Positions 80 through 22,404 of a stretch of DNA of 22,404 bases are shown here, piece after piece; positions within the stretch are counted from its first letter, which is position 1, and the number at the start of each line of letters is the position of its first letter. A program made the position numbers and the translations under genes. The notes under the pieces were generated by a model that saw only the letters and a list, made by a program, of their open reading frames with translations, searched no databases and had not been told where the DNA came from. This stretch comes from a virus. The stretch lies in the IMG/VR virus record IMGVR_UViG_3300006165_001776, positions 1 through 22,404 of that record; one strand, given 5' to 3'.

Positions 80-406
80 TTAAGCAGAGAAAGAAGAGCC
101 ACATCCGCAAGTCGCGGTTGCATTCGGGTTATTGAACTCAAAGCCCTTCCCGTTCAAGCCTCCCGAATAATCGAGAATGGTACCGTAAAGAAAGAGATAG
201 CTCTTCTTATCTACGTACAACTCTACGCCCATTGGTCCGGTAAACACTTTATCGCCGTCTTCAGCAGCTTCTGCAAAGTCTAGAGTATAGGTCAACCCAG
301 AGCATCCGCCCCCCTTGACTCCCACTCGAACTGATTTTCCAGTTCCGCCTTCACGGTCAACCAATTTTAATACTTGCTGTGCTGCTGCTTCGGTAATCTC
401 GATCAT
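80..406 (-). CDS. IscA/SufA/HesB-type iron-sulfur carrier protein
   Basis: This 108-aa protein belongs to the A-type Fe-S carrier family, which binds a [2Fe-2S] or [4Fe-4S] cluster or iron and passes it to apo-enzymes in the cytoplasm. The three family cysteines are visible: C35 in GGGCSGLTY, and C100 and C102 in the C-terminal CGCGSSFSA. Length and end position match bacterial IscA/SufA. The start at 406 is chosen because GGAGGA lies 4 nt upstream and MIEIT is a normal family N-terminus; the open frame continues to 451 but would overlap the RNR end. It begins 14 bp after the RNR stop, so it is the last gene of that operon. HesB/IscA-like genes are known as auxiliary genes in marine phages. 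The client is unknown; the RNR itself has no Fe-S cluster. Confidence 0.9.
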   Translation of the reverse strand: MIEITEAAAQQVLKLVDREGGTGKSVRVGVKGGGCSGLTYTLDFAEAAEDGDKVFTGPMGVELYVDKKSYLFLYGTILDYSGGLNGKGFEFNNPNATATCGCGSSFSA

Positions 407-420
407 GAGTTCCTCCGTTG

Positions 421-2289
421 TTAAGTGATCTCGCACTGCCCACCAGAACAAGCCAGTTCTCCAGACAAATCTGTATTGTCCTCGACTTCTACCACCTTAG
501 TCAAATCAACTTCGGTTAGGCTCTCTAGCATAGCCTCGTAGGTTTCCTTGGAGCAGTCCTCGAAAGGAGCCTGTTTGTAAGAATGATCCGAGAATGGAAG
601 AACAGACAAGCCGTTATAAACATCTCGATTGTCCCACATCCATTCACCAATATCTGCCCACTCTGCTTCCTTGATAGAGATGGTGGCTGATACATTGTGG
701 GTGTTCTGACCATTCCTAGTTCCCGGCTTCACCCATTCTGTGCTTACCTTAGCAACTCGTTTGAGTAACTGTAGTGCGCTCTCTGTTCTTAGAATCGCAC
801 CCTCTGGGGCTTTCTGGGGGATAGAGATGACCGCTGTATCATGAGGTCTAAAATATTCGTCCTCTACCATATCTGGATGATATAGAGCTAGATAGGTATA
901 GATTGCCTCGTTCTTGCCTACTCGGAGACGACGGATGTAATAATCGTTGTGCCATGCATGGATGCCGCTGGATGTTCCCAGAGTCAAAGAGGTTGTACCT
1001 GCTGGCTTAACTGTTGTAGTTCTGGCTGCTGCCTTAACTCCGATGATCTTTGCGACTCTCTTGTTTTCCATCTTAACGACAGAACAGGCTTCCTTCGTAT
1101 CTAAGTTGAGAATCTTGCCGGAAGCAATCCCAGTCATACTAACACCGATCAGCGCGTCTTTCTCTGTTGTGGTTCGCCATACATCGCGCAAGTAGTGGAA
1201 ATCAGAGTAGCCAGCCTGAAGTGTTCCAATGAACGAAGCGGCTTTCACCCTGCTATTCAACTCACCCTGACTCTCTACATCACTTACATTCACCTCTGTT
1301 AAGTTGCAGAACTGGTATGGTCGGAGGGCTATCTCGCAGCAAGGATTGGTACCCCAGTCTTTATCATTTGAAAAATAAAAACCCGGCTCTCCGCTGCCTG
1401 ATTCTTTTACCCTTTCCCAAAGATCTTGGAAAAATTCTTTGGTAATTCTGTGGCGAAGTAGCACAACTGAGTTGTTTGATCTCCCTCTCTGTGGGTTCTT
1501 CTCCCACCAGTTGCCTGTCTTGGCAGATAACATTTCTTGGTCATCGGCTGAAAACAAAGAGATCAGGGCTGCTCGACGGATACCCCCAGCCAAGACCGCA
1601 TCTGCGATGTGGCAAATCATATCGTGAACTTCAATCGTACTCAACCTGTCGCCGTTCTCCTTCTCTTCGAGCATCCCCTGAAGTTTAACCAAGCACTCGT
1701 TGAGGGGCTGTGGACCGGGAGCCTTGCCTCCAGATGTAACCAAGAGAGCGCCCTTTGGTCTAATGTCTGAGTAATCAAATCGCAGCTTGGAACCCCCGAA
1801 GAAGTAAGAACGGACTAGTGTCTTGACCGCATCTGCCCACCCTTCGATGGAATCATTTACCAAGAATCGTCGTGCCCTCTTGGATACCGGCTTGTTGATA
1901 GCTGGTAGTTTCTCTACGTGGTGCATCTGTACGCTATAGCCAACCCCAGTACCTCCTAAGAGGAGGAACATGATCTCCCCAAAGGCATGCCAGTCGTCAA
2001 TTGGAGCAAATGCACAATTATAAATACGGTTGGGGGCGACTTCAATAGGTTTGCCCCCAAACTGCATTGAGCGCATAGAGGGCAACACCTTCTTATTATA
2101 TACCATCTCGTAGGCACCGTTGATCTCGTCTTCCAGTTCCGGGTATTTCTTTACGTGCATAGCTTTGTTTCTATCCACAATCTCTTCCCAAGTTTCCCTT
2201 CGTTCTTTTTGAGAGAGATATCTTGCATACTTCATGTGAACAGTGATATCAGATAAAATGTCTCTTGCTACTTTATTCTTGCCTGTCAT
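421..2289 (-). CDS. nrdJ: Class II (adenosylcobalamin-dependent) ribonucleotide reductase, RTPR-like
   Basis: This 622-aa enzyme reduces ribonucleotides to deoxyribonucleotides using a radical from coenzyme B12, supplying dNTPs without oxygen or a second subunit. The active site follows Lactobacillus RTPR. The finger-loop motif NPCCE (315-319) gives the Asn, the thiyl-radical Cys (C317) and the Glu. C328 lies 11 residues later, as in RTPR, and pairs with C92 (NCAFAP) as the reducible pair. PAGTTSLTLGTSSGIH (429-444) is the conserved phosphate-binding segment. The C-terminal CSGGQC (C614, C619) is the swinging dithiol. The protein is shorter than the roughly 740-aa bacterial RTPR, as phage members often are. 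An additional Cys (C318) sits beside the radical Cys. The start ATG has AAGGGA upstream, in a 22-bp gap after the helicase gene. Activity would depend on host cobalamin. Confidence 0.95.
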   Translation of the reverse strand: MTGKNKVARDILSDITVHMKYARYLSQKERRETWEEIVDRNKAMHVKKYPELEDEINGAYEMVYNKKVLPSMRSMQFGGKPIEVAPNRIYNCAFAPIDDWHAFGEIMFLLLGGTGVGYSVQMHHVEKLPAINKPVSKRARRFLVNDSIEGWADAVKTLVRSYFFGGSKLRFDYSDIRPKGALLVTSGGKAPGPQPLNECLVKLQGMLEEKENGDRLSTIEVHDMICHIADAVLAGGIRRAALISLFSADDQEMLSAKTGNWWEKNPQRGRSNNSVVLLRHRITKEFFQDLWERVKESGSGEPGFYFSNDKDWGTNPCCEIALRPYQFCNLTEVNVSDVESQGELNSRVKAASFIGTLQAGYSDFHYLRDVWRTTTEKDALIGVSMTGIASGKILNLDTKEACSVVKMENKRVAKIIGVKAAARTTTVKPAGTTSLTLGTSSGIHAWHNDYYIRRLRVGKNEAIYTYLALYHPDMVEDEYFRPHDTAVISIPQKAPEGAILRTESALQLLKRVAKVSTEWVKPGTRNGQNTHNVSATISIKEAEWADIGEWMWDNRDVYNGLSVLPFSDHSYKQAPFEDCSKETYEAMLESLTEVDLTKVVEVEDNTDLSGELACSGGQCEIT

Positions 2290-9246: not shown

Positions 9247-10695
9247 TTAGTAAAATTGTTTCAGGTACCGTTCAATATACCCCAAAGCCGAGGCTGTGTC
9301 AACCAAATTATACAAATTGTCTATCTTTTTTATATTTGCTTTGATAGCATCTTCATCAACATTGGCTTTCAGTTCTTTTAATCGCAACATGAAATAAAGC
9401 TTCATAAAAAAAGAAGTGCTGAATTCTTCATTAAAATCTAAAATTGATATTGGGATCCTATCAATTGTTATCTTCTTTGAGCGCCCCGAACCGCAAGGCA
9501 CTGTGTCGATGGCGTATGGGAATTGTTTTACATACCTAGCATAAAACTTGAACAGCTTCTTCCTTAGCCCAGTTACATCTTTTGCCGTCGAATTAAAATA
9601 GTATCTATCGAAAAACGTGGTCAGGGTTAGTGGCTCTGGGCTTTCGCTCATGGGAAGTTCATGGGAGTGTGGTCCAATTCCGTGTGGTATTTCATTTGGA
9701 TAATTCCACCCCTGCTCTTCTGAAGTGAGGAAGCTTCTTATTGAGTGTTTGTGCTTTATGCCATTTGGATCTGTAAATATATCAGTCTCCCCATTGCCAT
9801 CTTCATTAATTGAATATTGGTGAGAGTGTAGATCTAGCCCAGTGTCCAAGGGCAAGAATGCTTTTTTCTTCATCTTTGTTTCGGAATTTCTAGGTGTAGA
9901 TAAAAACTTCATCATTCTGCCCTCTAGATAAGCTAGCATTTTTGGAGAACTTAAGTTAGCGACCAAGCGGAATGGGACATTCTTGTCGACCATAAAGCCA
10001 TATTTTGATGCAATCATCAAATATGTTTTGTAATTTATATTGTTCAAATACGTATCGAATATTTTAAACACATTGGACTGATCGTCTTTCGATATCTCGA
10101 TGCATAATCCAGAAGCCATTGGGGATGTAATATCTGACAGCAACATCCCCTGTGTTGTTAGTGGAATGTCACTTACGATATTAATCATGCAAAGATTTAG
10201 AAATATTTCAAAAAAGTCTTCGGGGTTCTTGATCCTCTTGTGCTTGTTTCCCATTTTAAGATACTTCTTAACAAACGATTCATATATTTGATCGTCCATT
10301 CGTTCTCGCATTTCTATCGGATCATCCCACGCCTTGAATGCTTTCATTGGCTTTTTAATTCTGCCCCCGTCATCAACTAACTTCTGACCATTTTTGCCAT
10401 TCATATATCGTTGCATATCGTTGAAAGCGTCGACAACAAAATCAAAGGCAAACAAGCTGTCACTGGTGATGTCTTTAAGTTGAGTAATGAATTTAGGACG
10501 AGGGAACAGAATATTCTTCTGTTCGTCCATTAAACCGTACATTCTATTTTTTTGCAACCAGAAATCTATCGGTTTTGGATATCCAAACCCTTCTGGATAT
10601 AACTTATCGTATTTCTTTCTTTGATCGAAAAGAAGTTTGGCAGGGACATTGTTTGTTATGTACACGTTTTGATTATATTTCTTATATCTTGCCAT
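9247..10695 (-). CDS. Probable virion protein with three HxH motifs, function unknown
   Basis: This 482-aa protein belongs by position to the tail/baseplate module: it follows the 968-aa hub-like protein by 12 bp and precedes the polymerase by 10 bp. No family is recognised. The N-terminal part (1-270) is helical and aromatic. A central Gly/Asp-rich insert (285-347) holds three HxH pairs: LHSHQY (H290, H292), KHKHS (H315, H317) and PHSHEL (H343, H345), with H338 nearby. HxH pairs bind iron or zinc in phage tail-fibre tips such as T4 gp37, so this insert may bind metal. The C-terminal part (355-482) is helical again. There is no signal peptide or membrane segment. The nearest Shine-Dalgarno (GGAG) is about 15 nt from the ATG, inside the end of the upstream gene. 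Confidence 0.6.
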   Translation of the reverse strand: MARYKKYNQNVYITNNVPAKLLFDQRKKYDKLYPEGFGYPKPIDFWLQKNRMYGLMDEQKNILFPRPKFITQLKDITSDSLFAFDFVVDAFNDMQRYMNGKNGQKLVDDGGRIKKPMKAFKAWDDPIEMRERMDDQIYESFVKKYLKMGNKHKRIKNPEDFFEIFLNLCMINIVSDIPLTTQGMLLSDITSPMASGLCIEISKDDQSNVFKIFDTYLNNINYKTYLMIASKYGFMVDKNVPFRLVANLSSPKMLAYLEGRMMKFLSTPRNSETKMKKKAFLPLDTGLDLHSHQYSINEDGNGETDIFTDPNGIKHKHSIRSFLTSEEQGWNYPNEIPHGIGPHSHELPMSESPEPLTLTTFFDRYYFNSTAKDVTGLRKKLFKFYARYVKQFPYAIDTVPCGSGRSKKITIDRIPISILDFNEEFSTSFFMKLYFMLRLKELKANVDEDAIKANIKKIDNLYNLVDTASALGYIERYLKQFY

Positions 10696-13986: not shown

Positions 13987-14838
13987 TTAAATATTTGAAT
14001 TCAATCCTTTCTTTTTCATCACCTCTCGAAACTTTTTATTATTAAGTATCTCTTTCATCGCTGCTGCGTGTGCTGGATCATATTGTTGTCGTGCCTCGTT
14101 TGATCTATCCGCCGCTTCGCCAGAGGGCGTGGCATACTTTACTCTTGTTACTTGTAAATCATCATCTGGGCTACCTGCGAGTGCTCCATTAACGTCCTTT
14201 ACAGAGTACGGAAACGCTGTAAACTCTGATTTGTCTTTTCCGCTCGAATCAAATCCAAGTCTTTGGCTGTGAAGTGGGTTGAAATCGAAACTGATTGTCA
14301 AATACTTCGGATATAAAAAAAACTGCCCTTCATCATCGCCTTGACCGACCATCTCAAACACTCCCTCCTTCAAATCGAAGGTGTGATTAAGGGATGTTAT
14401 ATATCCCAATAAAGGACCATTGGTCTGTGCATCTTGTATTAGATTCATCATCTTTACTTGAAGGAGAGGTCTGTCTTTTAGCACTCCGCCATCGTAAGTC
14501 GGATACAAGAACTGCGCCATCTTTCCCATCTGACCCATATTCCTAACTGCTATTCCTGCCGATTCTGCTATCAATATTAATCTCACTTGCATTGTTCTAG
14601 TAGTGTTCGAGTAATTTGCAATCGAATCCATTCTACCATAGGATTGTTCTGCTGTCCAGTTTGCGTTAAAATTATCTGAGAAGTCGTCGACGATGCCAGA
14701 ATTAAAATTGATAGTTTCCCCTATCGCTGGGTATGTGATCTGAACTAGTTTTTTTTGAACGTATCCACGGAAACTATCGAGCATGGTAGTTTTTACATCT
14801 AGATCTTTGTATGGTGACTTTTTTACTTCTTTTGCCAT
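13987..14838 (-). CDS. Baseplate tail-tube junction/cap protein (T4 gp48/gp54-like)
   Basis: This 283-aa protein has the pattern of tube-initiation proteins between the tape measure and baseplate genes: YGRMDSIANYSNTTR (67-81), RLILIAES (86-93), FLYPTYDGG (110-118), PLLQVKMMNLI (124-134), GYITSLNHTFD (145-155) and YPKYLTISFDFNPLH (176-190). Proteins of this kind share the tube fold and cap the baseplate so that tube polymerisation can begin. The N-terminus (MAKEVKKSPY) is basic and likely flexible. The C-terminal 80 residues are polar. Assignment rests on motif pattern and gene order, not on a search. GGAGA lies 9 nt before the start. Confidence 0.55.
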   Translation of the reverse strand: MAKEVKKSPYKDLDVKTTMLDSFRGYVQKKLVQITYPAIGETINFNSGIVDDFSDNFNANWTAEQSYGRMDSIANYSNTTRTMQVRLILIAESAGIAVRNMGQMGKMAQFLYPTYDGGVLKDRPLLQVKMMNLIQDAQTNGPLLGYITSLNHTFDLKEGVFEMVGQGDDEGQFFLYPKYLTISFDFNPLHSQRLGFDSSGKDKSEFTAFPYSVKDVNGALAGSPDDDLQVTRVKYATPSGEAADRSNEARQQYDPAHAAAMKEILNNKKFREVMKKKGLNSNI

Positions 14839-14854: not shown

Positions 14855-17518
14855 TTATGTTAAAGCCATTTCCTTATTCATGATATCGACAACTGCCTGT
14901 CCCATCTTTCTCTTGTCCAACTCAACAGTAACATTCACAGAGGAACCTCCCGTTGTATTAGAAGGAGCAGACATTCTAGCAGCAATAGTTTCTAGGGCGG
15001 CGATTAGTCTTTCTGGTACTTGTCCTCCGCCACCACCAATAGCCTCGGCAACAGGGCCTCCGGGCTTTGCTGCTATTAATTGATCCTTCTTGTTGATTGG
15101 GGTGACCTTTGTTTTGCCTCCATTGTTTTGAATGATAGCATCATCAACCCCGCTAGTGGTTTGAAACCCCCCAGTTGTACCGATTTTTCCGATGGATGGT
15201 GTTCCGGTTTTTGATCCTTCACCAAACCCAGTAAAAGCAGCGTAGGTACCTGCCGCCATCACTCCCATTGCCGCACCCGCTGCCACGGCTCCGTAGACTC
15301 CTAATTTGGCAAAGTTCATGGCCACCGCTACCAAAGCAATAGCACCCGCGACTGCCAAGATGCTTCCTACTATTCCTTTTGATGTTCCATCTAATTGGTC
15401 CAAAAGCCCAGTTAGCATGCTGAATACTGCCATGCCGATCCCAATAGCTTCCATGGCCATACCTATGCCAGCCATCGCTTTTGCTGCTTTGCCAGCCCCT
15501 TTTGCTTGTTTGTCCAATTCCTCAGTCATCGATTTTGTTTGTTCTTTCGTTGATTCCAAAGTTTCCAATTGTGACTTAATGAATTCTTCTTTGTTTTTCG
15601 TTGTGACTATAGTAGCCTCGCCCTCCGCGGCCAATTGCGCTTTAATCCCTGCGGTCAATTTATCTTGATTACCTAGCATATCCTCTATTCCGGATTGCTT
15701 TTGCTGAAGAGATAACAATCTCAACTCTTTGGCAACATTGGCGATACTCATTGCCATGGCAGCAGCCTCTTGCTTTGCCACCTTAATACCAAGAGCAAAT
15801 TTGCCAATACCCATGACCAACATGCCGATCATCACAGGGCCAAAAGCTGATCCTAGGGCGCTAGTTATTGCCGAGAGCGAGTTTGCAACTGGCTCCAAGA
15901 GTTTAGCAAATGGTCCAAACACATTCATGAGAGCGGTTTGGAATTTTTTTAGTGCCGGGATTGCTTCACGAGCCATGTCCTCGATGGTCATTGAGTTTTC
16001 TTTTTGTACTTTATCCAACTCTTCTTGGCTTTTAATCTGACCGTCCAAGATAGCAGTAAGGTCATCAATCTCCATGCCAAAGTTCTTAGCAAGGAATTGC
16101 TTCTCTCTGAAAGGCATATCTCCTAAAGTCTTACCTGCCCTAGCCAAGCCTTGCTGTAGGATTTCCACTTGAGCAAAAGGACCATCGGCTGCTGCCGTAA
16201 CAAGTTCGAACGTGTCGACAAAAGAGCCTCCCAAAACTAGGTTAAAAGCTGCAACCTTGGAAGCTGCTTCATCAAACTCGTCCATCCCATCACTTAAGGA
16301 AAAAAGATTACCCCCAAGTTCGGCAACGGAAACGCCTAAGCTTTTTGCAGCAGCAGCAGTTTTCATCATGATGTCTGGTGCTCTTGCCCCAAATAGAGCT
16401 AGCCTAGGCTGGAGACTCTTCAGGGAGGCGCTAAGTTGATCCGGAGGGATGCCGATTGCTGCTCCTTGTTCCACCATCGTTCTAAATGTCGACTCGGCTT
16501 GTTCTCCACTCATTCCCAGACTGGTCATCATGAAATTCAAGTTATCGCCTGTCTCAGATGCACTGATGCCTAACTGGCTTAAACTCGCGGCTGTTGCGGT
16601 AATCTTATTTTGAAGAGCTACATTGCTTTCACCGTTTTTGTCGATCAATTCTGTAAAGCGGGGAAAGTCTCGCAGCAAAGCAAGTTGAGCCTCCCCTACC
16701 TCTGCTATATTTATACCCAGAGCAGCCATCTCGTTTTGTAAGCCAATAACATTTCCTAGGAATTTTCTTCCTGCGCCCGTACCAGCAGCCAAGCTAGCCC
16801 CAATTGAATCAAAGGCAAGTCCGAGTTCAAGAACCTTGCTGCCCAAGAAGCCAACCATATTGCCGAGAGAAAAGACTTCTCCTATTTGATCGCTTATACC
16901 TGCTGCAAATCCTTGAATTCCGCCTTTAGCGCCTTCTGTTCCGATTGTTTTAAAAAGGTTTGTAAGACCGGGATTAGGCTTAAGCCCTGCCAAACTCCCC
17001 ATCTTATTGACAAGGTTGGCACCAGCGGTTGTTCCTGCTTCTCTGGCGGCTGTGAGTTGGCGCTCAGTGTCGAGTGTCTTGATTAAAGTATTGAGCCTTT
17101 TATCTACTTCCTTGTTTTCATCGCCAGCGCTTTCAACAATCTCTTTTTTTAGAGTAATAATTTCAGCGATTATCTTTTTTTCTTCCTCTGCGGCGACATG
17201 AAGCAACCTACCCTTCGCTACCTCTTCGTCTAATAGGTCATTGTATTTCTTAGTTGTTTTAGTGATATCTTCGAGTGAGGTTTTTCTAAGAGTTGCAAAA
17301 TCAAGCAAGCGTTCGGCTGCTTCTGCTTGCTCTCCATACAACATGGCTGTCTTTTGAGCATCAGAAATTTCTTCACCACGCATACGCCTAAGCCTAGCCT
17401 GATAATCGACTTGCTTTTGAAGAGCCTTGTTCATGCCTTCGAGGAGCTTGCTTTGTTTTGTTTTTTCCTCCGTGACTTTCTTTTGATCTTCAGGAGTATT
17501 GTTGTCGCCTTCAGCCAT
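14855..17518 (-). CDS. Tail tape measure protein
   Basis: This 887-aa protein should set tail length and be ejected with the DNA. The N-terminal 165 residues are coiled coil. A Gly/Ala-rich helical middle follows. Hydrophobic segments that could form membrane helices lie at about 553-578, 681-706 and 713-765. The C-terminal region carries IIQNNGGKTKVTPINKKD and LIAAKPGGPV (796-823), a motif common near the end of tape measure proteins, then SVNVTVELDKRKMG (860-873). No lytic domain is seen. At about 0.15 nm per residue the tail would be roughly 130 nm. It lies after the putative chaperone genes, the usual place. GAGGA overlaps the stop of the upstream gene and precedes the ATG by 10 nt. Confidence 0.92.
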   Translation of the reverse strand: MAEGDNNTPEDQKKVTEEKTKQSKLLEGMNKALQKQVDYQARLRRMRGEEISDAQKTAMLYGEQAEAAERLLDFATLRKTSLEDITKTTKKYNDLLDEEVAKGRLLHVAAEEEKKIIAEIITLKKEIVESAGDENKEVDKRLNTLIKTLDTERQLTAAREAGTTAGANLVNKMGSLAGLKPNPGLTNLFKTIGTEGAKGGIQGFAAGISDQIGEVFSLGNMVGFLGSKVLELGLAFDSIGASLAAGTGAGRKFLGNVIGLQNEMAALGINIAEVGEAQLALLRDFPRFTELIDKNGESNVALQNKITATAASLSQLGISASETGDNLNFMMTSLGMSGEQAESTFRTMVEQGAAIGIPPDQLSASLKSLQPRLALFGARAPDIMMKTAAAAKSLGVSVAELGGNLFSLSDGMDEFDEAASKVAAFNLVLGGSFVDTFELVTAAADGPFAQVEILQQGLARAGKTLGDMPFREKQFLAKNFGMEIDDLTAILDGQIKSQEELDKVQKENSMTIEDMAREAIPALKKFQTALMNVFGPFAKLLEPVANSLSAITSALGSAFGPVMIGMLVMGIGKFALGIKVAKQEAAAMAMSIANVAKELRLLSLQQKQSGIEDMLGNQDKLTAGIKAQLAAEGEATIVTTKNKEEFIKSQLETLESTKEQTKSMTEELDKQAKGAGKAAKAMAGIGMAMEAIGIGMAVFSMLTGLLDQLDGTSKGIVGSILAVAGAIALVAVAMNFAKLGVYGAVAAGAAMGVMAAGTYAAFTGFGEGSKTGTPSIGKIGTTGGFQTTSGVDDAIIQNNGGKTKVTPINKKDQLIAAKPGGPVAEAIGGGGGQVPERLIAALETIAARMSAPSNTTGGSSVNVTVELDKRKMGQAVVDIMNKEMALT

Positions 17519-17532
17519 TTAAAAAGGTTCCT

Positions 17533-17865
17533 CTATTTGAAGGGCCACTTGATTTTTGTTGCTTTCTCAAAATCAGCGATAGCCCTCTCTAGTTTATGTC
17601 TATTATTCAAAGTTTTTGGGTCAGTTAGACCGAACTTTTCGAAGTCATTGAGGTATCTCCTCTCATTCCCTAGGGTGCGAGCAAAGAGATTCAATTGCTC
17701 GGATGTTCCCCTGATTTTTGTAACTGGCTTAAATCCCCCACCGAACATCGCCTTAAGGATAGTTTCGATCTGGAAGCCAAGAGACCTCAAATATGATTCA
17801 TCGACGAGATCTGAGTTTAAATCTATCTCAATGGGTGCAAATTCTTCTACTTTATTGTTGTTCAT
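17533..17865 (-). CDS. Small protein upstream of the tape measure gene, function unknown
   Basis: This 110-aa protein has an acidic N-terminus (1-22) and then a helical, charged body: LRSLGFQIETILKAMFGGG (26-44), VTKIRGTSEQLNLFARTL, FEKFGLTDPKTL and FEKATKIKWPFK at the end. No family is recognised. It lies between the chaperone-like ORFs and the tape measure gene, 14 bp before the latter, so a role in tail assembly is likely by context. The ribosome site GGAGGA is 7 nt before the ATG. It is the first gene after the terminator-like hairpin at 17947..17901. Confidence 0.75.
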   Translation of the reverse strand: MNNNKVEEFAPIEIDLNSDLVDESYLRSLGFQIETILKAMFGGGFKPVTKIRGTSEQLNLFARTLGNERRYLNDFEKFGLTDPKTLNNRHKLERAIADFEKATKIKWPFK

Positions 17866-17900: not shown

Positions 17901-17947
17901 AAAAAAAAAGATCAAAATAAGCCTTTGGTTATAACTTACCTTGATCT
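17901..17947 (-). terminator. Terminator-like hairpin overlapping the gp51-like stop codon
   Basis: On the minus strand AGATCAAGGTAAG (17947..17935) pairs with CTTATTTTGATCT (17921..17909) along all 13 positions: eleven Watson-Crick pairs and two G-U pairs. The loop is 13 nt and eight T residues follow (17908..17901). The stop codon of the gp51-like ORF (17938..17936) is inside the stem. The stem is AT-rich, so it may be a partial terminator that lowers expression of the tape measure and baseplate genes behind it. Confidence 0.65.
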
Positions 17948-18208
17948 GTTTTTAGATTTCTCTACTTGTTGGTTTTCTTCTTCAAATTGTTTCTGTAGTC
18001 TTCGGATAAACCATCTTCTAATCATTATTGGAAGATTGTATGCCTCAATGAAGCTCCAGCCACCGTGATGCTTGAGGGAAAACATCTCCTCATAGACACT
18101 TTGAATGTAATTACTGCTTAGGCCAAAAAAAGTCGGTGGTAAACGGTACCTCCAAGGCTTGCTCAAAACCACAGTCGCCGCACTCATAATGTTGAACAAG
18201 CTCAACAT
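17936..18208 (-). CDS. gp51-like protein / second tail assembly chaperone ORF
   Basis: The frame from 18208 encodes 90 aa, but the family-like part starts at about residue 27: FFGLSSNYIQSVYEEMFSL, HHGGWSFIEAYNLP and IMIRRWFIRRLQ. This resembles the short gp51-type or chaperone C-terminal proteins of T4-like phages, which start with FFG and end in a basic helix. The first 26 residues overlap the end of the zinc protein gene in another frame and look like by-product. Neither ATG (18208, 18187) has a Shine-Dalgarno. The frame can be joined to the upstream gene by a +1 (or -2) shift at the T7 run at 18131..18125. The main product may thus be a fusion of about 350 aa. The true start is uncertain. 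Confidence 0.6.
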   Translation of the reverse strand: MLSLFNIMSAATVVLSKPWRYRLPPTFFGLSSNYIQSVYEEMFSLKHHGGWSFIEAYNLPIMIRRWFIRRLQKQFEEENQQVEKSKNRSR

Positions 18209-18983
18209 TGGGCATAATATTTCTGTAAGTTGTCCTCAAGAACTTAGAATCCAAAGCTGGCATGTTATCAACAAACTGGCTAATTTCAACTGGGGTTCCT
18301 TCGGAAGTAATAGATACTACATATCCTTTAATTTGGTCTGTCATCCCCAAAGGATCTAAGCGATGTTTCTTCCTAGAAGCTTCATGGGCTGCAAGTTTTT
18401 TTTCATCATGACCTGTTTGTGGCTTTACCTCCACTACGGCATTGGTCTTTGGAAGTGTAATCAGGAACGTTCCATTGTTTGTTTGCTCTGCATCATATTG
18501 CGAAAGCTCTGGATCGTTGATTACTGCTGCTTCTTCTAAATCAAATTCCTTCTCTTCAGCGCTACCACAAGACGGGCAGGATACTTTTGTAATATATTCC
18601 GCTCCATATCCAGTAATTCTCGTTGCAACAACCAATGCGTTCTTGTCGCCAATGATGAGATCTTCAACCTTCACATTATTTTCCACGATAACGCTTTGAA
18701 GAAGCTTATCAATGGCGACACCTTTCTTAAGATAAGACTGGTTAACAAGGATATCCTCGTCCTTCGCTGTCATATGCCTAATTTCGATTGTGTCTTTATT
18801 GTGGAGGGGGTGACCTTCTGCATAGAACTTGCCCTTGGAAGGCAAATCAACATACTCAGTTGGAACAACATAAGACATTGTTTGAGTTCTTGCTTCGTGT
18901 TGTTGTAGAATTTCTTGGGGGGGAATGTCTGAATCAGGGGAAAGTGGACCCCCAAAACGATCTTGGTTATTTCTAGAACTCAT
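18111..18983 (-). CDS. T4 gp26-like zinc-binding baseplate/tail assembly protein
   Basis: This 290-aa protein matches the T4 baseplate gp26-type pattern: VPTEYVDLPSKGKFY (40-54), EIRHMTAKDEDIL (67-79) and KGVAIDKLL (87-95). Two CxxC pairs, CPSC (136-139) and CGDC (268-271), probably bind one zinc ion. DPLGMTDQIKGYV (210-222) lies in the helical part. The end, VPFTTDFFWPKQ, overlaps the next ORF by 98 bp. Position between tail tube and tape measure is that of tail assembly chaperones, which in many phages make a minor frameshifted longer form. It could therefore be an assembly factor that is absent from the virion. GAGG lies 6 nt before the ATG. Confidence 0.65.
   Translation of the reverse strand: MSSRNNQDRFGGPLSPDSDIPPQEILQQHEARTQTMSYVVPTEYVDLPSKGKFYAEGHPLHNKDTIEIRHMTAKDEDILVNQSYLKKGVAIDKLLQSVIVENNVKVEDLIIGDKNALVVATRITGYGAEYITKVSCPSCGSAEEKEFDLEEAAVINDPELSQYDAEQTNNGTFLITLPKTNAVVEVKPQTGHDEKKLAAHEASRKKHRLDPLGMTDQIKGYVVSITSEGTPVEISQFVDNMPALDSKFLRTTYRNIMPNVELVQHYECGDCGFEQALEVPFTTDFFWPKQ
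18125..18131 (-). other. Possible programmed frameshift site (T7 run)
   Basis: On the minus strand the reading frame of the gp26-like gene is GAC TTT TTT TGG, and the gp51-like frame is ACT TTT TTT GGC. A +1 shift on the last TTT (or a -2 shift) moves ribosomes from one frame to the other. Both frames read Phe-Phe here, so the tRNA can re-pair. The zero-frame stop is only 10 nt after the T run. A one-base loss in the run, real or from sequencing, would fuse the two genes. Confidence 0.45.
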
Positions 18984-19054: not shown

Positions 19055-19660
19055 TTATTTGACTTCTGCGCCAAGACCTGAGATGTTCTTAAAATCTTTG
19101 CCAGCATTGGCTCTTCTTGGACCCTCATTCTCACCAGCAGTATTATAAGTTGCGTAGTCATATTTAACTGTAACATCGAAGGACATAAGTTCGTCTCCGC
19201 TATAGTCAAACTCTCCAAAATTGGCTTGGCTAATCCAAGCATTGTGAAGTGACCACCTATCGATGATACCACCGTCTGCATCAATTGCCGTAATGAATAG
19301 GTTTATAACTGCTGATGCCTTAGATATCGTTCCTTGGGACTTAGGGTTAATTGCTTGACTAGGGAGTCGATATCCAGAAGATGCCAGCATCCCCATCAAC
19401 ATAGCGGTAGAGTCTGGATTAACTGCATCAACAACACTAAAGGAAACATCTTGCCAAGTTAATCTTCCGGGGAAGTAAAAGGTGTGATTCAAATAAGAGT
19501 GAGTCGCCTCGTTAATTTGAAAACTTGGGCGACTCACCTTTTGGATTAGCCATTGCTCAAAGCTTTGTCCACCCTTAGAAACATTTAAGAGAAATCTATA
19601 CTTTCTTTTTGCTTCTGCGTTTGAATTTGCCCAAAATCTTTTATTGTTGTCGACTGCCAT
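19055..19660 (-). CDS. Tail tube protein (T4 gp19-like)
   Basis: This 201-aa protein is the major inner tube subunit; hexamer rings stack to form the channel for DNA. The pattern is that of T4-like tube proteins: YRFLLNVSK (21-29), a mid-region WLIQKVSRPSFQI (37-49), YFPGRLTWQDVSFSVVDAV (62-80), then DRWSLHNAWISQANFGEFDY (134-153) and SFDVTVKYDYATY (160-172). Length is slightly above T4 gp19 (163 aa). It follows the sheath gene after 70 bp, the usual order. AAAGGA lies about 10-11 nt before the ATG. The AT-rich gap in front of it (19661..19730) holds no clear promoter on this strand. The 71-bp gap behind it (18984..19054) has a weak A/T hairpin only. Confidence 0.87.
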   Translation of the reverse strand: MAVDNNKRFWANSNAEAKRKYRFLLNVSKGGQSFEQWLIQKVSRPSFQINEATHSYLNHTFYFPGRLTWQDVSFSVVDAVNPDSTAMLMGMLASSGYRLPSQAINPKSQGTISKASAVINLFITAIDADGGIIDRWSLHNAWISQANFGEFDYSGDELMSFDVTVKYDYATYNTAGENEGPRRANAGKDFKNISGLGAEVK

Positions 19661-19730: not shown

Positions 19731-22404
19731 TTAGTCCTCAAATCCTGCGCCGGAGTTGGTAATCACGAAATCAATTGCGAAGAACTCAACAGCCTTAGTA
19801 GGTTTCAAAAAGACTTTCGCGTAGATAGTGTTTCTGTCGATAAGGTCTGGTGTGGTTGTAGATTCATCCAAGATGACCTTAAAGGCATCTAGACCAAAGT
19901 TATTCTTAATATTGTTCAAGAATGGATTAGCTCTAGATAAGAAGTTGTTCCAAGTTAATTCAACATTTGGCTCAAATAACAATGTGGAAGCAATTCTGGA
20001 GATTTCCTTCTTAACAAAGATCATCAATCTTCTCACGTTGATTCTATCCAAAGCAGAAGGTGTAACTTGAAGGGTCTTTTGACCGAAGATTACAATACCC
20101 TCATTTGGGAAAGTTGCGATTGGGTTGATGTTTGCCTCGTAAAGATCGTCTCTTTGCTTAGAGGTCAATTTGCTTCTAACCATGGTAACAGGGATTCCTG
20201 CTGCGCCGCCTGTCAAGCCGCCTCTGCTAAACCCTGCTGGTGCAAACCAGAGGGCTGATTCTTTCTCGGAGAAGGATAGTGCTCCTAGTGCTGCCACTGA
20301 TGGTGGTGCCCACAAGCCCCTTCCATTAATTGTATCTGTAATTCTAACCCAAGGGTAGTAACAAGCACCGTAGCTTGAGTTAAGATTACGTGCAGTCATG
20401 TTATTGACAACATCGGCAACATGAGTTGTTGAAATCCTTTGCTGCTCAGTCTGATAGTCTTCAGAGGCTGGTGTGTATCCACCTCTTGGGTCGATGATTG
20501 CCAGAGTGTCTCCACGACCTTCTACAATTTCGATCATAGATGTTGTAAGACCTTGATTAACAATTCCGGGGGCAGTAAGAATATTGCCTTCGATGAATTC
20601 TGCATCAGCATACATATCAATAGCTTTCTTTACAGAGTAATACATAGAGTATCCAACATCAGTTGCTCCTTCGGGAAGCGCTCTGGTTTGATTAAAAGGT
20701 TCTTCTTCTGTGATGTCAAATCCATTATAGCCTCCATAGAACGGAGAGGTGAATCTATCATATCCAGCGTCCAAAACAGCCTTGTAAGATCCAGTCATAG
20801 CTGTAATTGAAGCTCCCCTAGATCTAGAACCAGAGGCGTAGAATACAGAACCTGTTGGGCTACCACCGCCAAGACCAGAAACGCCGCTTCTCTGCAAATC
20901 ATCAAGAGAGAAGTACCAAGATACTTGGGTCGTGTCTGCAACTGGTGTGAATCCGTTAGCCCCTCCTGCGCCTTTTGGCAATGTATATAAAGTGTCAAAA
21001 TTGCTCTCGTCGAATACAACCGACGTGAGTGTTTGTGAGAAAGATGCTCCGAAGTAAGCCTCAGTCGGATCCGACAACCCATCTGCGCTAGCACTAATTC
21101 TTAGAGGAATTTCTGGGAAACTAACTGACCCTGTGAATTGTATTCCAGTATGATTAGTACTTAACTGGACAACTCCGGGGTCGATGGATCCTGTCACCGC
21201 ACCAAAGCAGTTTCCGGCGGATCCGGAACCAGCATCAAGAAATGGTGCCACGTCCGTAACTGGCAAGCTTCCCGATAGATGCTCTTGACTACTGACAAGG
21301 GAGAAGTCTTTTAATTTGACTGGTCCATATACCCCGAACGGAAGAAGTTCAGGGTTTGTCTGTGCGGCTTCAACAGAAGAAGCCATTTCTATGCGAACAA
21401 TCTTGGAGATGTTAGGATAGGATCCATACTCAACCAATCTAAGGTTGGTGGTGTCCCACTCTACATGCATATCGCCAATTTGACTAGCGATATAGTTTGG
21501 TGAGTTGGGATCTAAAGTAAGGTTTGTGTATCTCTCAACATATTTCCTAGCACCATCTGAATCCCTAGCACCTCTGATAGCCAAAGTGAAAGTTCCGTAT
21601 GGGGTATTATCATTTCTAGAGTATCTCAAATCTTCAATAGAAACCTTAAAATCTCTCTGCTCCTCCTCTCCTGTAGATATAGTATGAAGCTTAAATAGTT
21701 TTGTGATTGTATTAAGGTTCTCAGGGTTGTAAGGAGGGCTTAGGTCTGCATTGACAGATTCGACTGCGCTTGCAGCAGTGTTTCTCAAGTCCTGAGAGAA
21801 GAACCAACCAGTTTGCGATGGGACTGTAGCGAATTTAAAATTACCACCATCAGCCATGGTAGCGCCATTACCAATTCTCATAATGACACCATAACAATTT
21901 TGACTAGCAGAAAGGGTTTGTTTGACATGTCTATCGTAAGACTGACCTAGAAAGAAGGTTGATGTACTGTCATTGGCTGTGTCGACCAACGCGCTGTTTG
22001 TTTTCGTTGGATTGGTGTTAAAAACTTTTCTGATATAGTTTTGAGAACTTTGATCAAAGTTAAATGCTGTTTCCTTAACAATGTTGTTTTCAGAAGCAAG
22101 TGTCCTGTTTCCTGTTTTGTTATAAACTCTAATTTTGAATGTCTTGCTGGTGTCCAATGAACAAACCATAACAGAAGATCCTGTGACTTTCGCCCCACCG
22201 TTGAACCCTAAAGTGGAATTTCTAATAGATCCAGAAAGGGTAGGACCGCCTTCTGTGCTATAGAATGTTGCAGCCAAACAACCGGGAACAGACTCTCTAT
22301 CTTGGCCGGCAGCCCCAGAATTAAAAAGGAAAAGACCGTATGCCCCACCACCTTCAGGAGATGTAGCGCCAGTCTTCTTTGGCAATTCCCACCCTGCGGT
22401 CGCA
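19731..22404 (-). CDS. Tail sheath protein, 5' end outside the window
   Basis: About 890 residues of the contractile sheath subunit are visible. The reading frame stays open to the window edge (…A-T-A-G-W-E before LPKK), and the first visible residues look internal, so the gene continues past 22404; the TTG at 22385 is not a convincing start. The C-terminal part is typical: FYGGYNGFDITEEEPFN, APGIVNQGLT, ALIDPRGGYTP-like AIIDPRGGYTP, then RRLMIFVKKEI, ANPFLNNIKNNFGL and a final strand-forming segment ending NSGAGFED, which links neighbouring subunits in the sheath mesh. T4 gp18 is 659 aa; this protein is larger even when cut, with Ser/Gly-rich middle segments (about 370-560) that are probably surface domains. 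Confidence 0.93.
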   Translation of the reverse strand, partial: ATAGWELPKKTGATSPEGGGAYGLFLFNSGAAGQDRESVPGCLAATFYSTEGGPTLSGSIRNSTLGFNGGAKVTGSSVMVCSLDTSKTFKIRVYNKTGNRTLASENNIVKETAFNFDQSSQNYIRKVFNTNPTKTNSALVDTANDSTSTFFLGQSYDRHVKQTLSASQNCYGVIMRIGNGATMADGGNFKFATVPSQTGWFFSQDLRNTAASAVESVNADLSPPYNPENLNTITKLFKLHTISTGEEEQRDFKVSIEDLRYSRNDNTPYGTFTLAIRGARDSDGARKYVERYTNLTLDPNSPNYIASQIGDMHVEWDTTNLRLVEYGSYPNISKIVRIEMASSVEAAQTNPELLPFGVYGPVKLKDFSLVSSQEHLSGSLPVTDVAPFLDAGSGSAGNCFGAVTGSIDPGVVQLSTNHTGIQFTGSVSFPEIPLRISASADGLSDPTEAYFGASFSQTLTSVVFDESNFDTLYTLPKGAGGANGFTPVADTTQVSWYFSLDDLQRSGVSGLGGGSPTGSVFYASGSRSRGASITAMTGSYKAVLDAGYDRFTSPFYGGYNGFDITEEEPFNQTRALPEGATDVGYSMYYSVKKAIDMYADAEFIEGNILTAPGIVNQGLTTSMIEIVEGRGDTLAIIDPRGGYTPASEDYQTEQQRISTTHVADVVNNMTARNLNSSYGACYYPWVRITDTINGRGLWAPPSVAALGALSFSEKESALWFAPAGFSRGGLTGGAAGIPVTMVRSKLTSKQRDDLYEANINPIATFPNEGIVIFGQKTLQVTPSALDRINVRRLMIFVKKEISRIASTLLFEPNVELTWNNFLSRANPFLNNIKNNFGLDAFKVILDESTTTPDLIDRNTIYAKVFLKPTKAVEFFAIDFVITNSGAGFED

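Follow-up and report, generated by a model that had tools for sequence, protein, structure and literature searches.

How is a reading frame translated that overlaps the end of a tail gene by 98 bp (18111-18208) and has no ribosome site of its own? The question is raised by IMG/VR record IMGVR_UViG_3300006165_001776, a 22.4-kb viral contig whose whole stretch of 22,404 nucleotides we call the window, and in which all the genes noted lie on the minus strand. Between the genes for a tail tube and a tape measure-like protein stand gene A, of the T4 gp26 type, and an open reading frame (ORF), B, in the +1 frame relative to A. We conclude that A and B very probably form a one-gene tail assembly chaperone pair made by a +1 ribosomal slip, the counterparts of gpG and gpGT of phage lambda. 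The elements concerned, with positions relative to the codon in the ribosomal peptidyl (P) site where needed, are:

18983-18111 (-), gene A (gp26-like, "G"), 290 amino acids, from its ORF and family matches
18208-17936 (-), ORF B as called mechanically from the ATG at 18208, 90 amino acids
18123-18131 (-), putative slip site TTT_TTT_TGG, with a run of seven T's at 18131-18125
18149-18153 (-), GGAGG, Shine-Dalgarno-like, a possible stimulator 20 nt upstream of the P-site codon
17936-18124 (-), B domain after the predicted +1 shift ("T", gp51 C-terminal domain), GLSSNYIQSVYEEMF...KNRSR and stop, 62 amino acids
17936-18983 (-), predicted A-B fusion ("GT", gp51-like) via the +1 shift, 348 amino acids, open across the shift

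In profile searches, the product of gene A matched Pfam T4_baseplate (PF12322) with an expectation value (E) of 3e-15 and 56.9 bits, above the curated cut-off of 24.5, which makes it a member of the T4_baseplate/gp26 family, and it also matched PHROG 150, "baseplate hub". Its cysteines (CPSC and CGDC) are zinc-ribbon-like, and it ends in EVPFTTDFFWPKQ before the stop. The T run is read in frame A as GAC TTT TTT TGG and, one base forward, as TTT TTT GGC, so that the shifted product joins ...FTTDFF to GLSSNYIQ... and comprises 286 + 62 = 348 residues with its end at 17936; the -1 frame is closed just beyond the site. A Shine-Dalgarno sequence was not found in the 20 bases 5' of either ATG of B, at 18208 (TTACAGAAATATTATGCCCA) or at 18187 (TGTTGAGCTTGTTCAACATT). 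The overlap, the T run, the missing ribosome site and the FTTDFF-GLSSNYIQ junction had all been put forward in an original prediction made from the window alone, and each was confirmed when the sequence was checked. Since the in-frame doublet YTT TGG occurs four other times among the window genes, the motif alone proves nothing, and it is the comparative evidence that carries the case.

In the mechanism that we propose, most ribosomes would finish A, whereas a presumed fraction at UUU_UUU_UGG would have the second UUU (18128-18126) paired to tRNA-Phe in the P site. This tRNA would re-pair one base forward, from UUU 18128-18126 to UUU 18127-18125, with GGC as the next codon, and reading would continue through frame B to give the A-B fusion. 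A would then correspond to lambda gpG and A-B to gpGT; on the lambda model, the tape measure protein would be coated with A, and tail tube protein would be brought in by the B domain so that polymerisation can begin.

Comparison with relatives establishes the conservation of the site, its frame and the missing start codons. Among 80 related IMG/VR loci, those with the complete region, together with the window, collapse to 70 distinct sequences of 42-89% protein identity, which are related by descent, and the counts are not independent events. The site GAC TTT YTT TGG CCT is almost invariant in this set: YTT TGG CC[T/A] was present within a few codons of A's stop in 70 of 70 loci, as TTT TTT TGG (66), TTT CTT TGG (2) or TTC TTT TGG (2). 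In all 70 the +1 frame is open across the site and past A's stop, and the -1 frame closes near the site. Because every complete related locus has both the site and the open +1 frame, the overlap and the slip site are not due to chance. The variable codon position also changes: upstream it is the third base of frame A, and past A's stop it is that of frame B, with major-base frequencies of 0.59 at A position 3 upstream and of 0.79, 0.91 and 0.56 at B positions 1, 2 and 3 downstream. The conservation of the B peptide, FGLSxxYxxxVYEExFxLKYHGGWSFxEAYNLP, begins at the slip codon. Upstream of it, 11 of the 70 loci contain no ATG, GTG or TTG in frame B and 34 contain no ATG; for this reason, and because it lacks a Shine-Dalgarno sequence, the ATG at 18208 is probably not used as a start. 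Comparison thus gives strong support to the suggestion first made from the window, that of a chaperone-type pair in which a +1 frameshift yields the second product.

The GGAGG element is conserved as well. It precedes the P-site codon in 67 of the 70 loci (60 at -25 and 7 at -31), against a background of 0.015 per 60 nt elsewhere in gene A, and its spacing to that codon is 20 nt in the main group and 26 nt in one sub-clade. Loci resembling phage immuto have it at -31 to -37 in 42 of 64 cases, against a background of 0.021. It is also kept in loci L025-L028, where frame B has a TGA just downstream; since GGAGG is retained where no usable start codon follows, we infer a stimulatory or pausing role for it. 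Two other roles were considered and rejected: that of B's ribosome site, as the main group has no start at a usable distance and L025-L028 keep the element despite the TGA, and that of serving a TTA start 6 nt past it, as it persists in L025-L028 although the TGA closes frame B. In one sub-clade (L047, L048, L056, L073, L076 and L078) GGAGG lies 6 nt further upstream, just before a frame-B ATG or GTG, and a separate start of B might also be possible there. A conserved RNA structure around the slip site was likewise rejected, the only candidate being a weak hairpin that shows no covariation and would melt inside the ribosome, and an Rfam search of the window gave no match.

The +1 arrangement extends beyond the window clade to the immuto-like phages, Mel-JY01 and the SP-15 group. 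The cultured phages that have it are Mel-JY01, immuto, SP-15, LIS04, GXN1 (with UUU CGU at the slip site, as in a locus from an Erysipelotrichaceae assembly) and BRock, their families being counted as independent; a plasmid search for SP-15 gp26 gave no matches. In the immuto-like clade (64 distinct loci) the site is TTT [CT]T[TA] TGG CCT, and TAC occurs once. Loci with CTA as the second codon give a B product that reads F-Y-G, so that the slip there would probably occur on the first UUU.

These variants bear on how the frame is changed. A shift of -2, as in phage Mu, had been offered as an alternative; it would reach the same frame with one extra Phe in the fusion, and on seven T's a P-site tRNA slipping back by two would still pair. 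However, it would leave a mismatched middle base at TTC TTT TGG (L032, L050 and L053), at TTC TTT CGT of GXN1 and at CTG TTT CGC of BRock, where a +1 slip gives a perfect or wobble pair, UUU or UUC, every time, and we therefore regard the -2 shift as very improbable. A homopolymer at the junction also invites the thought of transcriptional slippage, or of an assembly error that hides a simple in-frame fusion. The original prediction had itself raised a six-T misassembly and had asked for the homopolymer at the same codon in homologous loci, which was found: exactly seven T's stand there in 66 of the 70 distinct sequences. This count and the CTT and TTC variants rule out the misassembly; moreover, TTTCTTT and TTCTTTT keep the frame arrangement with no run longer than four, and the same arrangement is found in cultured phages with complete genomes, which makes either explanation scarcely credible.

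In other lineages the same codons form a -1 site. The heptamer U_UUU_UUN lies at the C-terminal Phe-Phe codons of gp26 genes of cyanophages, pelagiphages, KVP40-like phages, Sinorhizobium phages and jumbo phages, and B follows in the -1 frame. Each of the 62 distinct cyanophage-type loci has NNT TTT TT[C/A/G] one codon before the stop (directly before it in one locus), and none contains a start codon in the -1 frame at or before gp26's stop. The same -1 site and frame were found in S-PM2, HTVC008M, ValKK3 (KVP40-like), phiM7 and pf16, and NNT TTT TT[C/T] near the end of gp26, with B open in -1, in Atu_ph07, Phosso, Vibrio 2.275, PA5oct, Munch, CBB, 121Q, RaK2, SCTP-2, XacN1, RAS14 and LR756511; CBA120 and Cygsa01, with ATT TTC, are weaker cases. 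A tblastn search with the S-CAM8 B peptide from Phe-Phe onwards matched 545 phage records. In a tree of gp26, the +1 and -1 sites each cluster (0 of 500 shuffles as low), and T4 gp26 and gp51 group together (96/92) inside the -1 side on long branches. The uncommon +1 direction suggested for the window thus holds for its own clade, the immuto-like phages, Mel-JY01 and the SP-15 group, and fails for cyanophages and jumbo phages, which have an ordinary -1 site. In S-SCSM1 (L104, 2150-2240), GCA TCT TTT TTC GCT TAG is kept, but roughly 11 additional bases downstream of it take B away from the -1 frame, and B has an ATG of its own; this is either a natural two-gene variant or a sequencing or assembly indel.

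Alternatively, B could be a gene in its own right whose translation begins at an ATG within A, or through re-initiation (translational coupling) once ribosomes have reached A's stop, the overlap being ordinary packing. The ATGs at 18208 and 18187, the separate B ORF of S-SCSM1, the GGAGG before a frame-B start in the six-locus sub-clade and the TAATG overlapping the stop in ValKK3, 121Q and Cygsa01 would all fit this explanation. It does not account for the missing Shine-Dalgarno sequence in the window, for the lack of a start where one is needed in 11 of 70 window-type and 62 of 62 cyanophage-type loci, or for a conserved peptide that begins at the slip codon and not at any start codon; and B, whose frame differs between the +1 and -1 clades, always meets A at Phe-Phe. 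We consider an independent B improbable.

What, then, are A and the fusion? Comparison with T4 is informative here, where genes 26 and 51 are divergently transcribed without a frameshift. Residues 1-201 of T4 gp51 match PF12322, the gp26 family, at E = 4e-52 (T4 gp26 itself, 9e-64), and PHROG 634, to which cyanophage B belongs, matches residues 147-246 at 1e-23; T4 gp26 and gp51 resemble each other at 2e-6. The alignment (E = 1e-6) of cyanophage B, itself a PHROG 634 match at 9e-30, with T4 gp51 begins at F200, the point where the PF12322 match stops. On this domain evidence T4 gp51 consists of a complete gp26-type domain and a B domain and is an in-frame version of the predicted frameshift product, encoded beside gp26 alone, so that T4 encodes A and A'+B as two genes. 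The equation of the second ORF with gp51 is refined in that T4 gp51 holds, besides the B domain, an entire domain of the gp26 type. A separate gene 51, named beforehand as evidence against a frameshift, does occur in T4; it carries its own copy of domain A, and we count it as support, as is the domain make-up of gp51 for the proposed equivalence of gp26 and gp51 to G and GT. As Sullivan et al. noted in 2010 without explanation, the first ~200 residues are missing from gp51 of cyanophages and marine vibriophages (PMC3037559); a frameshift would supply the residues absent from the "truncated" cyanophage protein.

In PMC3004832, T4 gp26 and gp51 appear among the chaperones of hub assembly, and gp51 is given as essential, absent from the particle and of unknown function. 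The position between tube and tape measure genes, the predicted two-product architecture and the reported absence of T4 gp51 from the virion match G/GT, as do the overlapping frame, the conserved slippery site and the lack of an own start, and we hold with fair confidence that the pair works like G/GT. Membership by homology is not claimed, because AlphaFold2 models match no solved structure. A and T4-type gp51, modelled separately, reached predicted local distance difference test scores of 85 and 83, and the A model agreed with that of SP-15 gp26 (template modelling score 0.81 by target length).

Several observations weigh against this interpretation or limit it. Foldseek searches of the A and T4-type gp51 models against the PDB returned nothing at E<=0.001, and a PDB sequence search gave no match. 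Known G/GT pairs share little mutual similarity, and for this reason the missing fold match lowers homology and not function. The ATG overlapping A's stop in ValKK3, 121Q and Cygsa01 would allow re-initiation. GGAGG lies 20 nt from the P-site codon, as against about 3 nt for known +1 stimulators, and to our knowledge a spacing of 20 nt or more is not one described for +1 stimulation. In profile searches, B of the window matched PHROG 634, "baseplate hub assembly catalyst", only weakly (E = 0.007). Window-type B, taken as a consensus, lies closer to DUF6760 (E = 1e-4, below cut-off), and domains related to B may occur in tail-like injection systems on the strength of this weak resemblance. When the profiles of window A and T4-type gp51 were compared, the alignment covered the zinc-ribbon segment only, so that the link between them rests on PF12322 and PHROG 150.

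Alternatively, the frameshift could be real but the roles of A and A-B confined to the assembly of the baseplate hub, outside tape-measure and tube chaperoning, the likeness to G/GT being convergent. Genetics placed T4 gp26 and gp51 in the hub pathway (PMC3004832), and the absence of a fold match to solved tail chaperones would agree with such a role; the gene order tube-A-B-tape measure speaks against it, as does the finding that T4 gp51 is indispensable yet missing from the particle (PMC3004832), which is equally true of gpG and gpGT (PMC5009743). Because T4 gp29 is both a hub component and the tape measure, the two roles are not exclusive, and we think a hub-only function rather unlikely.

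Among known systems, Xu, Hendrix and Duda reportedly described in 2004 the tail assembly chaperones G/GT of lambda together with equivalents that also arise by frameshifting. As in lambda, the slip would lie near the end of the first gene and a short second domain would be read only as its extension; in contrast, the lambda shift is -1 and that of the window +1, and A is a 290-residue zinc-ribbon-like T4_baseplate protein without a sequence or solved-fold match to gpG. The SPP1 chaperone pair gp17.5/gp17.5* uses UUUUUUC, the Phe-Phe heptamer of the -1 relatives (PMC6316719), but SPP1 is a siphophage with a -1 shift only and a protein unrelated by present evidence. T4 gp26 belongs to the A family and gp51 has an A-type domain plus B, on two divergent genes. 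Phage 0305phi8-36 has paralogous genes in place of a frameshift for G and GT, the arrangement that we propose for T4, but the proteins belong to a different, four-helix gpG-like family (PMC2147016). In E. coli prfB (CUU UGA, a Shine-Dalgarno-stimulated +1 shift), a P-site YUU re-pairs at +1, and the CTT TGG variants resemble CUU U; prfB has a stop codon in the aminoacyl site and its Shine-Dalgarno sequence at about 3 nt, whereas here the codon is UGG and GGAGG lies at 20 nt (26 nt in the sub-clade). Influenza PA-X (UCC_UUU_CGU, +1), where a P-site YUU likewise re-pairs at +1, shares the UUU CGU core with GXN1 and the Erysipelotrichaceae-assembly locus (PMC3498833); the window differs in its UGG and its GGAGG at 20 nt.

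According to Atkins 2016 (PMC5009743), the G-T frameshift is conserved widely among long-tailed phages, "except T4". We think it likely that the T4 superfamily is no exception: its ancestor would have frameshifted at Phe-Phe, lineages would have settled on +1 or -1, T4 gp51 would be a fossil in-frame fusion after gene duplication, and the small cyanophage "gp51" would be the second half only. If so, the T4 exception to the rule is removed, the long-obscure gp26 and gp51 gain a testable mechanism, and the apparent loss of the first ~200 residues in cyanophage and marine vibriophage gp51 (PMC3037559) is explained. A single pair of Phe codons that acts as a +1 site in one set of lineages and as a -1 site in another would provide a natural series for studies of shift direction. 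No report of this frameshift was found among open-licence papers, and one elsewhere is possible. In many phage records B is either absent from the annotation or reduced to a stub whose start is invented; the deposited B is a 36-residue ORF in immuto and a 39-residue ORF in SP-15 (among L082, L083, L084, L086 and L105), and the records of GXN1, LIS04 and S-CAM8 carry none.

The order of the neighbouring genes is sheath, tube, A, B, a 110-residue ORF and tape measure, as follows:

19731-22385 (-), tail sheath (gp18-like), Phage_sheath_1C, E = 3e-10
19055-19660 (-), tail tube (gp19-like), PHROG 4542, E = 8e-25
17533-17865 (-), 110-residue ORF between B and the tape measure gene, no family match above chance in profile searches
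14855-17518 (-), tape measure-like protein, 887 amino acids, from PhageMin_Tail PF10145 (E = 7e-4, under the curated cut-off), position and length

An ORF at the position of the 110-residue one has 110 residues in HTVC008M (L286, 1411-1743) and 139 in phiM7 (L288, 1405-1824). A link to extracellular contractile injection systems through DUF6760 was considered and dropped, as, in the phylum searched, a match turned up in one genome of 392, where the tail-like locus is decayed and has no gp26 beside it. That bacterial contig (L284, G320:C3:119500-127500) carries decayed sheath fragments, a tube-like ORF and the DUF6760 match, with one TAG inside. Elsewhere in the window, T runs of seven and eight occur inside two other genes (9247-10695 and 13987-14838, both (-)), and an IscA/HesB-type iron-sulfur carrier-like protein was recognised by eye at 80-451 (-) (GGGCSGLTY ... 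CGCGSSF), adjoining a ribonucleotide reductase gene.
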